From assembly GCA_030149405.1 (NCBI GenBank), contig JASBRM010000013.1, forward strand, positions 1 through 15,232: 15,232 nucleotides of DNA, in the 5' to 3' direction. Under the pieces are notes generated by a model. The model had not been told where the DNA came from and searched no databases. It worked only from the letters and a program-made list of their open reading frames with translations. Below, in pieces: positions 252 to 4,370 of the stretch; within the stretch, counting starts at the first letter, position 1; each line of letters begins with the position of its first letter. This DNA is from Neptuniibacter sp. (lineage in GTDB: Bacteria > Pseudomonadota > Gammaproteobacteria > Pseudomonadales > Balneatricaceae). The translations under genes were made by a program, and so were the position numbers.

Positions 252-782
252 TTAGAAAACAACTGGCAGAAAATGAATCGCAATGGCTGCACTGGACACA
301 CCCAACAGTGCACCCGCTGCAATATCTGACGGGTAATGCACCCCCAATAACACTCTTGAAAGACCAACAAGTACGGCTATTGAGTAAGCGAATCCGGCAA
401 AAGCAGGATAAAACTCAGCAATCAATGTAGCAAATACAAACGCAGCAGCTGAGTGACCGGATGGAAAGCTGAATTTATCTGAAGGAACGATATAAGCTTC
501 AAACGGCAAGATATCACAGGGGCGATCGCGTTTGATGGTGTTTTTCAAAACCAGATAAACCGGAAGCTCTATCGCATAAGCCATCAATCCAGCGATAAAG
601 AACATCAAACCAAATACCGGTTCAAATACTGCGAGGGAAAGACCCAATACCAGATACAAACCGCCATCTCCAATTCGAGAAACCTGACGGCTTACTTTGG
701 CAATTTCTGAAGCACGAGGAAGACCCAGGCACCAGTTAAAGGCGAAAAGGTCAAAAGTAGTCAGTAATTTGATGGCACTCAT
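252..782 (-). CDS. PAP2-family membrane phosphatase
   Basis: This is a 176-residue membrane protein with the three signature motifs of the PAP2 (type 2 phosphatidic acid phosphatase) superfamily. They are K80 followed by RP at 87-88, PSGH at 107-110, and SR at 142-143 with H149 and D153. H110 and H149 are the expected general acid and phosphohistidine nucleophile. Hydrophobic stretches at about 43-82, 112-140 and 153-174 give roughly four to five membrane segments, with the active site on the periplasmic face in known relatives. Possible substrates are phosphatidic acid, phosphatidylglycerol phosphate or undecaprenyl pyrophosphate; the sequence alone does not decide. A strong GGAGG ribosome site lies 6 nt before the ATG. 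The gene follows a PhoB-like array and precedes a glycosyltransferase gene, so a diacylglycerol-supplying role under phosphate limitation is attractive but unproven. Confidence 0.9.
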   Translation of the reverse strand: MSAIKLLTTFDLFAFNWCLGLPRASEIAKVSRQVSRIGDGGLYLVLGLSLAVFEPVFGLMFFIAGLMAYAIELPVYLVLKNTIKRDRPCDILPFEAYIVPSDKFSFPSGHSAAAFVFATLIAEFYPAFAGFAYSIAVLVGLSRVLLGVHYPSDIAAGALLGVSSAAIAIHFLPVVF

Positions 783-814
783 TGGAAGCCTCCAGATACT
801 CTTTCATAAACGAA

Positions 815-870
815 ATAATGAGCATCAAAAGTGACATTCCAGTGAATGCGGATTGACAGTTTTATGACAT
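815..870 (-). promoter_or_regulatory. Candidate PhoB-dependent promoter: four-unit Pho box array plus -10
   Basis: Read on the minus strand, four 7-mers begin exactly 11 bp apart: ATGTCAT (864-870), CTGTCAA (853-859), CATTCAC (842-848) and ATGTCAC (831-837). The known Pho box is two CTGTCAT-type 7-mers separated by 4 AT-rich bases. The first pair, with its AAAA spacer, matches the 18-bp consensus at 16 positions. The last unit ends 10 bp before CATTAT (815-820), a 4-of-6 match to the -10 consensus. That is the spacing used when PhoB replaces a -35 element. The predicted start, near 808, would leave a leader of about 25 nt carrying the GGAGG site of the PAP2 gene. Binding by PhoB is inferred from pattern only. 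Confidence 0.75.
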
Positions 871-881
871 AGTGAAAAAGC

Positions 882-1814
882 TTATAGCGCGGCCGCGGCC
901 ATCTCTTTTACAAACTTTTTCTCAAACCATTGCGCAGCTAGCAAGGCCACCAGCTCGGGCTTGAGGAAAGGCACCATATGCCCTTGCTTTTCCATTACGA
1001 CCAGGTCCATAGGTTGTTCACAGAACTGCATAATTCTTTTTGAGTATTCCAATGGTAAAACTTCGTCATGTTCACCGTGCAGTATGCCTGTTTCGAAAGC
1101 ATGTTCTTTATCAACAAGCTTACATCTGTGAGTAAAAAGACTGGATAAGGTGCTTAATGGGTAGTCAAAAACCATAAGAGGGTCACGATTTATCTCGCTA
1201 CCCGCAGGGTGCCCTTTAAGTAACTGGTTGTAATCAACAAAGGTTTTTAATGGGATTTTTAAGCCCGGCATAAATAAAGAAGAAGCCCAGGTCCAGTTCC
1301 ACCCCATTCTATAGTGAAGATCTGGCGCAACATCTGGGACAAGCAAAGTTCCACATAAAACCGCAGAGAAGCGTTTATCAGAAGCAGCCGCTGCCACTGC
1401 CAGCAAAGCTCCTATTGAGTAGCCATAAATACCAAAAGGCCCCTGATAGCGTTGCTGCAACACATCCAACACAGACGAAACAGCCTGACACATCTGTGCA
1501 ACGGTATACTTACCTCGTGACCCACCTGAATAGCCATGGCCCAACGGATCAATTCCCACCACGTTGTAACCCTGCTGAGAGAGTTTGTATAACATCTCAG
1601 CATAGAGTTCAGAATAAGTACCAATTCCTGGAAGGAACAGAATAGTCGGTGCATCTTCAGCGAACTCATATAACTCACAATGAATTCCACTTTCCCCAAC
1701 CGCAAAAGCGGTACGATGCTTTAGGTAGTCCTCAATTTTGAGCTTTTCTCTCAAAGAAAGGCGGAAGCTGCAATTTTCATGGGATAAAACGGGTGGCCTA
1801 ATCTGTACAGACAT
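882..1814 (-). CDS. Alpha/beta hydrolase, monoacylglycerol lipase-like (S33 type)
   Basis: A 310-residue alpha/beta hydrolase. The LPGIG loop at 61-65 is the likely oxyanion-hole region and DPLGHGYSGG at 89-98 is the usual strand-loop before the nucleophile. GYSIG at 131-135 puts the nucleophile at S133. GEHDEVLP gives D250 and GHMVPF gives H279, completing a Ser-Asp-His triad. The cap between about 160 and 240 is rich in aromatic residues, as in lipid esterases. There is no signal peptide, so it is probably cytoplasmic. The substrate is not evident; monoacylglycerol or lysophospholipid esters are plausible. The start lies 11 bp after the mutM stop with a GAGAG site in the gap, so it is co-transcribed with mutM. 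An odd alanine-rich tail (AAAAL) ends the protein. It could also act with the lipid-type genes that follow. Confidence 0.85.
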   Translation of the reverse strand: MSVQIRPPVLSHENCSFRLSLREKLKIEDYLKHRTAFAVGESGIHCELYEFAEDAPTILFLPGIGTYSELYAEMLYKLSQQGYNVVGIDPLGHGYSGGSRGKYTVAQMCQAVSSVLDVLQQRYQGPFGIYGYSIGALLAVAAAASDKRFSAVLCGTLLVPDVAPDLHYRMGWNWTWASSLFMPGLKIPLKTFVDYNQLLKGHPAGSEINRDPLMVFDYPLSTLSSLFTHRCKLVDKEHAFETGILHGEHDEVLPLEYSKRIMQFCEQPMDLVVMEKQGHMVPFLKPELVALLAAQWFEKKFVKEMAAAAL

Positions 1815-1825
1815 ATAACTCTCAA

Positions 1826-2638
1826 TCAGCGTTGGCAGTGCTTACAGAAGACTGTTGCACGCTGCCCTAAGCGCACTTCGGTAAGAGGGCTCAGGCAGTT
1901 AACACATGGCTGACCTTTTCGACCGTACGCATTCAATTTTTGTTTAAAGTAGCCTGGTTTTCCATCTCCACCTACAAAATCCTTCAGGGTTGTTCCGCCC
2001 TGCTCAATCGCAAAGGACAGCACTTTTTTAATTTCTTCGACTAATCCCGTTAACCGTTGTAAAGAGATATTTCCTGCAGACCGTCGAGGATCAATTCCGG
2101 CAGAGAACAATGCCTCCGTCGCGTAAATATTACCCACCCCCACAACAACATGACTGTCCATTATCACCTGTTTTATTGCCGCTTTGCGTCCATTACAACA
2201 GTTTTTAAGATACTCTGCTGTAAAGTCTTCACTCAGAGGTTCTGGCCCCAGTTTGTACAACAACTCATGATGCTCTCCATCTGGCTGCCACAAAACTGAA
2301 CCGAATCGTCTCGGATCCGTTAAACGCAGAACTTTGCCATTGGAAAAACAAAAATCCACATGATCATGCTTTTCCGGCGCCTTATCACTATCAACAATTC
2401 TAAGGCTTCCTGACATTCCCAAATGGACCAATACCGTTCCACTTTCAACGTGTAAAAGAATATATTTTCCGCGCCTCGAAATCTCTTTAATCACCTTTCC
2501 TTCGACTTCTGACTTAAGAAAGTCAGGAACAGGCCATCTTAGATTTGGATTACGGACAGTAAGGGAAGCTACAACCTGATGTTCAATATGCGGTTCAATA
2601 CCGCGGCAAGTTGTTTCTACTTCAGGTAGTTCAGGCAT
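1826..2638 (-). CDS. mutM: Formamidopyrimidine-DNA glycosylase (Fpg)
   Basis: This 270-residue protein is a bifunctional DNA glycosylase/AP lyase that removes 8-oxoguanine and formamidopyrimidines in base excision repair. After loss of Met1 the mature N-terminus is Pro, the Schiff-base nucleophile, followed by Glu (MPELPEVE). Lys58 in RRGK matches the conserved catalytic lysine. DPRRFG at 108-113 supplies the arginines that fill the helix gap. The helix-two-turn-helix holds N170 in VGVGNIY. The C-terminal zinc finger is intact, with Cys245, 248, 265 and 268. Length matches the E. coli protein (269). No clear Shine-Dalgarno precedes the ATG. In E. coli mutM directly follows rpmG; here an antiporter gene on the opposite strand separates them, so mutM must have its own promoter in the 2639-2774 gap. 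Confidence 0.97.
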   Translation of the reverse strand: MPELPEVETTCRGIEPHIEHQVVASLTVRNPNLRWPVPDFLKSEVEGKVIKEISRRGKYILLHVESGTVLVHLGMSGSLRIVDSDKAPEKHDHVDFCFSNGKVLRLTDPRRFGSVLWQPDGEHHELLYKLGPEPLSEDFTAEYLKNCCNGRKAAIKQVIMDSHVVVGVGNIYATEALFSAGIDPRRSAGNISLQRLTGLVEEIKKVLSFAIEQGGTTLKDFVGGDGKPGYFKQKLNAYGRKGQPCVNCLSPLTEVRLGQRATVFCKHCQR

Positions 2639-2774: not shown

Positions 2775-4370
2775 ATGGATTTTATCTGGATTGTTTTTGC
2801 CTTTGTTTGTGGTTATGCCCTGCGTTTAATCGACATGCCTCCACTTATCGGGTACTTATTTGCAGGTTTTTTCCTGCATTTTCTTGGTGTAGAAGCAGAT
2901 GCCAGCCTTAAGACCCTAGCTGACCTCGGCATTACATTAATGCTGTTTACCATTGGCTTGAAACTGGACGTAAAAGATCTGTTCAAGACAGAAGTATGGG
3001 CGGGCACGCTGTCACATATGCTGTTATGGTCTTTGCTCGGTATTAGCTTTTTCCTGCTACTGGCAACCCTATCAATCCCGTATTTCACTGACCTCGACCT
3101 CCAATCTGCAGCGCTGATCAGTTTCGCTTTAAGTTTCAGCAGTACGGTTTGTATTGTTAAATTGCTGGAAGAAAGTGGTGAAATGAAAACCCGCCATGGC
3201 CAACTGGCTATCGGCGTTTTAGTCATGCAGGACATAGTGGCGGTGCTTTTTCTGGCATCAGCAACAGGCAAAGTGCCTTCTGTTTGGGCACTGGCATTAT
3301 TCGGATTAGTATTTGTCCGGCCAGTATTCAACCATATGCTGATGCGGGCAGGTCATGGTGAGCTACTCCCGCTTGCAGGCTTTTTCCTTGCGTTTGGTGG
3401 TTATGAATTATTCAACTTAGTCGGCATCAAAGGGGATCTTGGTGCCCTGATCTTCGGCATGCTTCTTAGTTCACATCCTAAAGCCAGCGAGCTGACAAAG
3501 TCCCTACTCAGTTTCAAAGACATCTTCCTGATTGGCTTCTTTCTATCCATTGGTTTTACCGCTCTACCAAGCTGGTCAATGATGGGGATTGCAACAATAC
3601 TGGCGATATTGATTCCTCTGAAGTACATCTTGTTCTTTGGAATTTTCAGCCGTTTACATCTAAGAGGCCGAACCTCTTACCTGACTGCACTCGCCCTGAG
3701 TAACTTCAGCGAATTCGGCCTTATCGTGGCCTACCTCTGTGTTGATAATGGCTGGCTATCGAACGAGTGGCTGGTCATTCTGGCTCTGGCGGTATCCCTA
3801 TCCTTTATTCTTACCAGCCTGGTCTATCGTTCTGCCCATTCAATCTATCTGCTTTATAAGGATCGGATTAAATCATTTGAAACGGATACTCCCCTTCCCA
3901 GCGATATTGTTCACCAGCCAAAAGGCTCTGAAATTCTGGTCATCGGCTTAGGCCGGGTAGGTAAAGGCGCCTTTAATGCATTACATAGCATGGTGGGAGA
4001 TAAAGTCTGGGGAATGGATGCTGACAGAACACGTATAGAAAAATATCAGTCTAAAGGCATGCATGTATTCTATGGTGACGGTGAAGACGCTGACCTATGG
4101 AATCGCATGGACACTCAGGAGCTTAAACTGGTTTTGCTTGCCCTACCCTCCATCGATGACATCCTCAATATCGCCGAGCAATTACAGTTCGCCAATTATA
4201 AGGGTGAGATCGCAGCGATTGCCCGATTCCCGGATGAGCATGACCAGCTTGTGGAAGGCGGTATCGATAAAGTATTCAACTTTTATACTGAAGCCGGTTT
4301 CGGTTTTGCAGAAGAAAGTCTGGAATTGATCGGTTATACGCAACAAAAACCAGAGTTAAAAGAAGCATAG
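2775..4370 (+). CDS. CPA2 cation:proton antiporter with TrkA-N domain (KefB/YbaL-like)
   Basis: A 531-residue two-part protein. Residues 1 to about 360 form a CPA2-type membrane antiporter with roughly 10-12 hydrophobic segments. They include LGITLMLFTIGL at 51-62, the SFSSTVCIVKLLEE region at 120-133, and MQDIVAV at 151-157, whose D153 is a likely ion-binding residue. Residues from about 385 form a cytosolic Rossmann RCK/TrkA-N domain, with GLGRVGKG at 391-398 and the acidic residue D415 at the end of the second strand, as expected for NAD(H) binding. Relatives exchange K+ or Na+ for protons and are gated by nucleotide or thiol adducts. Whether this one answers to glutathione adducts like KefB/KefC is unknown. 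The ATG has only a distant AAGG about 14 nt upstream. The gene stands alone, divergent from mutM and convergent with rpmG. Confidence 0.9.
   Translation: MDFIWIVFAFVCGYALRLIDMPPLIGYLFAGFFLHFLGVEADASLKTLADLGITLMLFTIGLKLDVKDLFKTEVWAGTLSHMLLWSLLGISFFLLLATLSIPYFTDLDLQSAALISFALSFSSTVCIVKLLEESGEMKTRHGQLAIGVLVMQDIVAVLFLASATGKVPSVWALALFGLVFVRPVFNHMLMRAGHGELLPLAGFFLAFGGYELFNLVGIKGDLGALIFGMLLSSHPKASELTKSLLSFKDIFLIGFFLSIGFTALPSWSMMGIATILAILIPLKYILFFGIFSRLHLRGRTSYLTALALSNFSEFGLIVAYLCVDNGWLSNEWLVILALAVSLSFILTSLVYRSAHSIYLLYKDRIKSFETDTPLPSDIVHQPKGSEILVIGLGRVGKGAFNALHSMVGDKVWGMDADRTRIEKYQSKGMHVFYGDGEDADLWNRMDTQELKLVLLALPSIDDILNIAEQLQFANYKGEIAAIARFPDEHDQLVEGGIDKVFNFYTEAGFGFAEESLELIGYTQQKPELKEA

Follow-up and report, generated by a model that had tools for sequence, protein, structure and literature searches.

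Upstream of a gene pair encoding a PAP2-family phosphatase and a glycosyltransferase, four 7-bp units were found on the minus strand, in an 11-bp register and ending 10 bp before a putative -10 element. The arrangement follows the grammar of the pstS and phoB promoters of related genomes, is conserved across genera and is linked to the gene pair. Judged by these sequence comparisons, the array is very probably a PhoB-binding site and a PhoB-activated promoter, from which the PAP2-glycosyltransferase pair would be expressed in phosphate starvation. The array's Pho box is a known kind of element. The window, meaning the whole 15 232 bp stretch of Neptuniibacter sp. DNA analysed, carries the features listed in Table 1.

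The first-pass annotation had read ATGTCAT, CTGTCAA, CATTCAC and ATGTCAC on the minus strand, starting at 870, 859, 848 and 837 and spaced 11 bp apart. When the sequence was re-read the letters, strand, coordinates and register were all exact, as were the 10-bp gap followed by CATTAT after the last unit and the 99-bp intergenic gap between the hydrolase and PAP2 genes. The minus-strand gene order is mutM, alpha/beta hydrolase, the 99-bp gap, PAP2 and the start of the glycosyltransferase gene, which begins 12 bp past the PAP2 stop. CATTAT is weak as a -10 element (matrix score -1.4 versus 8.6 for TATAGT), and neither a consensus sigma-70 promoter nor a terminator was found in a scan of positions 700-1000.

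Table 1. Features of the candidate promoter and of the neighbouring genes (positions in the window)
Feature	Position	Strand	Details
mutM	1826-2638	-	
Alpha/beta hydrolase, upstream of promoter	882..1814	-	PF12146, E 4.4e-22
Putative PhoB unit 1, ATGTCAT	864..870	-	Matrix score 8.7 (maximum 11.0); NTGTCAT, NTGTAAT or NTGTAAC in 9/10 nearest genus members, window counted
Putative PhoB unit 2, CTGTCAA	853..859	-	Score 4.9; NTGTMAA or NTGTMAG in 10/10 genus members
Putative PhoB unit 3, CATTCAC	842..848	-	Score -1.4; NATTCAY, in phase, in 9/10 genus members
Putative PhoB unit 4, ATGTCAC, promoter-proximal	831..837	-	Score 8.8; NTGTCAC in 9/10 nearest genus members, NTGTAAC in the remaining one
Gap between unit 4 and -10, TTTTGATGCT	830-821	-	
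Candidate -10 element, CATTAT	815..820	-	10 bp past unit 4
Ribosome-binding site GGAGG ahead of PAP2	789..793	-	Sequence reading
PAP2-family phosphatase, 176 aa, lipid-phosphatase-like	252..782	-	PF01569, E 4.6e-23
MJ1255/VC2487-family glycosyltransferase, N-terminal 79 aa, runs off contig end	3..239	-	TIGR00661, E 4.3e-18, fragment under cut-off

The array has the form of a Pho box, with TGTCAY-like 7-bp tandem units in 11-bp phase, and the units stand 10 bp upstream of a weak -10 as they do ahead of pstS and phoB in related genomes. The published Pho-box consensus for the PhoB regulon is CTGTCATNNNNCTGTCAT (PMC8528852). In related genomes pstS is preceded by CTGTCAC-N4-TTGTCAT-N10-TATAGT or a near variant, and phoB by TTGTCAT-N4-GTGTAAC-N10-TCTAAT or a near variant. 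In-phase pairs matching the consensus at 11 or more of 14 positions were present at 16 of the 17 pstS loci scored and at 27 of the 30 phoB loci, nearly all with an identical 10-bp gap to the -10; the phoB loci without a qualifying pair were L054, L063 and L064, and at phoB loci L048 and L061 the pair was in a shifted register. The pstS genes were named mostly from matches under the family cut-off and, for some, from proximity to phoB, TIGR00975 being above its cut-off in only three of 57 genomes. Thirty pstS loci were retrieved and 24 taken further; seven of these were dropped before scoring and L082 after it (start misassigned), which left 16 in the matrix. Those dropped before scoring were L069, L070 and L071, the only three above the cut-off, with a different PstS type and uncertain starts, L091 and L096 (wrong-strand frame), and L077 and L080. 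By eye, in-phase pairs were present in L069 and L071 and none was seen in L070.

PhoB itself is encoded in the genome from which the window derives (G000:C341, 354 bits, above the family cut-off), this being one of 52 among the 57 genomes searched in which PhoB exceeded that threshold. The pstS promoter of the same genome is CTGTCAC-ATTT-TTGTAAT-N10-TATAGT. The array had initially been likened to a multi-box pstS promoter, and the likeness stands for the 7-bp units, the 11-bp phase and the 10-bp gap, which are also those of phoB, and fails for the number of units, as pstS in this genome has only two, and the pstS and phoB promoters compared here likewise have two where the array has four. The array further differs from them in its third unit, a conserved ATTCA variant, and in its -10, CATTAT where they have TATAGT or TGTAAT. 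The exact degenerate two-unit grammar occurs at four places in this genome: on either side of pstS and ahead of phoB and of hemB. The site a short distance downstream of pstS (L179, G000:C275:8240-8272, minus strand) is a second exact match to the Pho-box grammar there; the site ahead of the hemB homology region (L181, G000:C298:16968-17000, minus strand) has the start of ppk1, encoding polyphosphate kinase, behind hemB.

Scoring with a PhoB weight matrix and a search for the units in orthologous gaps had been proposed as checks with the original reading. Two matrices, one for the 7-bp unit and one for the -10, were trained on 16 pstS and 16 phoB sites from related genomes and on no PAP2 sites, the phoB sites being picked by hand, without a rule, from the 27 qualifying loci. 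With these matrices the four-unit array was the best in the window, the composite of four units, N10 and -10 scoring 19.6 and ranking first among 30 354 positions (both strands), with the runner-up at -11.9. When the 99-bp gap was shuffled under an order-1 Markov model, the four-unit composite score was matched in none of 20 000 shuffles, the three-unit score was reached in six and the two-unit score in 202. Genome-wide searches with two-unit patterns were rejected as evidence, as signal could not be separated from background: CTGTCAT-N4-CTGTCAT with up to two mismatches was found at 14 places and its reversed pattern at 11, and TGTMAY-N5-TGTMAY-N10-TNNNNT with up to one mismatch at 16 places and its reverse at 17. 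The strength of the array therefore rests on the four-unit chain and on its conservation.

Both the units and their phase recur ahead of the PAP2 orthologues of the genus and the family. Across the 10 nearest members of Neptuniibacter, window counted, all four unit places are in phase; CATTAT is kept in eight of them, the other two having CATCAT and GATGCT, and GATGCT belongs to the weakest row (L011), in which the array is also weak. A more diverged member of the genus, L027 (54-56% PAP2 identity), lies outside this count. Majority identity among the 10 was 94% in the unit cores (five bases each), 93% in the -10, 73% in the 4-bp spacers and 61% in the 10-bp gap, a contrast that is partly built in because the rows were aligned by best unit score. 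The inner unit had been described as degenerate but in phase. It does score low and does lie in phase, but it is CATTCAC/T or TATTCAT in nine of the 10 and TATTAAT in the tenth, which marks it as a maintained variant and not as decay. Further genera of the family also have four in-phase units, as at L024, L025, L028 and L029.

A wider comparison covered 106 PAP2 homologues scored over the 150 bp upstream, 70 with an MJ1255/VC2487-type glycosyltransferase directly downstream and 36 unlinked, that is, with no glycosyltransferase within the sequence stretch examined; L099 and L100 (on the same contigs as L015 and L018, judged by length and coordinates) and L155 and L160 (upstream sequence too short) were left out. 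An in-phase pair at p <= 0.05 preceded 67 of the 70 linked and 13 of the 36 unlinked homologues, and at p <= 0.01 the figures were 51/70 and 10/36, the compared loci sharing descent, so that these counts are not independent trials. Median pair scores were 11.9 for linked homologues, 0.25 for unlinked and -4.9 for 695 control upstream regions, and a score of at least 10 was reached by 66%, 22% and 2.4% respectively; the controls were mechanical ORFs of at least 150 codons from the same loci, and not all of them need be true genes. Such sites also occur without the gene pair, as the 13 PAP2 homologues that carry one without a glycosyltransferase show. Significant in-phase pairs stand ahead of PAP2-glycosyltransferase pairs in more distant genera as well, the linked loci including Alteromonas, Aliiglaciecola, Marinomonas, Idiomarina, Shewanella, Pseudoalteromonas, Methylobacter, Methylovulum, Zobellella and Halieaceae; the linked loci are from genera of Oceanospirillales, Alteromonadales, Methylococcales and Cellvibrionales type.

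Three of the 70 linked loci (L128, L138 and L170) had no significant pair within 150 bp, and in L128 and L170 nothing was seen further upstream by eye either. In L138, from Shewanella xiamenensis, ATGTCAC-N4-CCGTCAT-N10-TAGTCT lies at about 3282-3315, ~220 bp before the start of PAP2 homology, which suggests that the leader is long or that a small gene was missed. L111 differs in that its distant glycosyltransferase homologue (29% identity) precedes PAP2 instead of following it; the 150 bp ahead of PAP2 contained no significant in-phase pair. Of the 69 linked loci examined (to L154), 25 have the hydrolase gene no more than 300 bp ahead of PAP2, nearly all of these 25 being in the window's own family. 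The pair at p <= 0.05 is still present in 42 of the 44 linked loci without a nearby hydrolase, so the site tracks the PAP2-glycosyltransferase pair and not the upstream gene.

CreB and CpxR are OmpR-family regulators that also have 11-bp direct-repeat sites. Binding of such a regulator in place of PhoB would accord with unit 3, CATTCAC, which resembles the CreB half-site TTCAC and whose NATTCAY form is conserved, and with the at least 41 matches to the PhoB model in this genome (41 of 49 candidates scored), which imply many response regulators of this kind. It is nevertheless highly improbable, given that TGTMAY units with equal -10 spacing stand at pstS and phoB in related genomes and at pstS, phoB and hemB-ppk1 in this one, and that several further genera of the family have a unit 3 that reads like TGTCAT, TTTCAC or GGTCAC. 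A chance match within an AT-rich gap, for which the background frequency of two-unit patterns across the genome speaks, is contradicted by the composite rank, the shuffles and the in-phase conservation across genera and can practically be dismissed; the original reading had called chance agreement unlikely.

Taken as a whole, the PhoB interpretation put forward in the first-pass annotation is supported, with induction by phosphate starvation as its prediction. With their 11-bp repeat the four units would lie on one face of the DNA as two neighbouring pairs, and the array stops 10 bp short of the -10. In phosphate starvation, phosphorylated PhoB would bind them as two tandem dimers and, as in its general mode of action at promoters lacking a -35, would substitute for the missing element and recruit sigma-70 polymerase. 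Transcription would begin near 808, leaving a leader of ~26 bases, with the GGAGG, ahead of the PAP2 start codon, and would switch on PAP2 and the glycosyltransferase from within the mutM-hydrolase-PAP2-glycosyltransferase string. As no terminator was found after the hydrolase gene, the promoter is probably an internal, phosphate-controlled one in a longer gene string.

PAP2-family matches were obtained in 44 of 57 relatives, many of them weak; 30 loci were retrieved and 29 aligned (L037 omitted), and K80, R85, R87, P107, S108, G109, H110, R143, H149 and D153 were invariant among the 29. The predicted model of the window's PAP2 protein (pLDDT 89) has the helical-bundle fold of PAP2 lipid phosphatases, and its nearest solved structures are LpxE (6EBU) and PgpB (5JKI). 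The glycosyltransferase was assigned to TIGR00661/PF13528, and three of three full-length relatives scanned passed the TIGR00661 cut-off; its alignment held 59 of the 68 listed full-length sequences. The fold is of UGT/MurG type, and since the matches listed are GT-B enzymes with diverse acceptors, it does not set the acceptor of the transferase; no diacylglycerol glycosyltransferase was present among the best 50 fold matches listed. In Vibrio cholerae the chitin regulator ChiS is reported to give a ChIP peak upstream of VC2487 (PMC11856585), the glycosyltransferase for which the family is named, whose regulation may therefore differ in Vibrio.

What the pair does under such control can be proposed with less assurance. 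It is an evenly balanced judgement that the two enzymes convert membrane lipid phosphate to a phosphorus-free glycolipid: PAP2 would dephosphorylate a membrane lipid, phosphatidic acid for example, to diacylglycerol, and the glycosyltransferase would add a sugar to it, yielding a lipid without phosphorus and saving phosphate. More tentatively, PAP2 and the MJ1255/VC2487-type transferase may constitute a second, PlcP-independent pathway of starvation lipid remodelling, from phosphatidic acid through diacylglycerol to glycolipid, which would be PhoB-controlled across much of Gammaproteobacteria.

LpxE removes phosphate from lipid A, and Aquifex LpxE is the nearest solved structure to the window's PAP2 in a sequence-profile search (E 4.6e-22) as well as in a fold comparison (TM-score 0.81, 6EBU). 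The pair, while controlled by PhoB, might on these grounds act on lipid A, with PAP2 removing a phosphate and the sugar masking or replacing it. PgpB, a phosphatidylglycerophosphate phosphatase, is nearly as close in fold (TM-score 0.76), however, and PAP2-type lipid phosphatases are often promiscuous, so that the fold does not set the substrate. An action on lipid A appears unlikely. Rather less likely still is recycling of the undecaprenyl carrier, in which PAP2 would dephosphorylate undecaprenyl diphosphate and the transferase would load a sugar for a starvation-induced glycan; PAP2 matches to undecaprenyl-diphosphatase models fall far under the family cut-offs (47.5 versus 250 bits and 36.7 versus 229), although such matches exist and MurG is among the close folds of the transferase in the matches listed.

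If the proposal of glycolipid formation is true, a widely conserved PhoB-controlled PAP2-glycosyltransferase operon would widen the reach of lipid remodelling to lineages in which PlcP may be absent, and it provides a testable condition, low phosphate, together with candidate substrates for two protein families that are poorly characterised. No report placing the operon in the Pho regulon was found in searches of an open-licence literature collection, subscription papers being mostly outside it. Four PF00149 matches were found in the window's own genome, three of them ApaH-, CpdA- and LpxH-like and one without assignment; a clear PlcP was not seen among the four, in a genome ~96% complete in 397 contigs and in a comparison made without a PlcP reference. 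In Pseudomonas aeruginosa a plcP mutant keeps residual glycolipid, for which the authors invoke another supply of diacylglycerol (PMC8528852); a PAP2-glycosyltransferase route may bear on this residue, the presence of the pair in that species being hypothetical.

The window's PAP2 shares its fold and catalytic residues with LpxE and PgpB, with only 25% identity to them in the fold alignments, and unlike them its gene has a glycosyltransferase partner and a Pho box. PlcP-Agt is a described bacterial route for swapping phospholipids for glycolipids in phosphate-poor water (PMC4796936). PlcP-Agt is likewise a Pho-box operon that joins a lipid-dephosphorylating enzyme to a glycosyltransferase (PMC4796936, PMC8528852), and the window operon resembles it in having a Pho box and an adjacent glycosyltransferase, the lipid part of the likeness being presumptive. 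PlcP in that system is a metallophosphoesterase phospholipase C, whereas the enzyme in the window operon is a PAP2 phosphatase, and the operon is therefore not a member of the PlcP-Agt system despite its similar logic. The window transferase, of the MJ1255/VC2487 family (PF13528), is set beside Agt by description and not by sequence.
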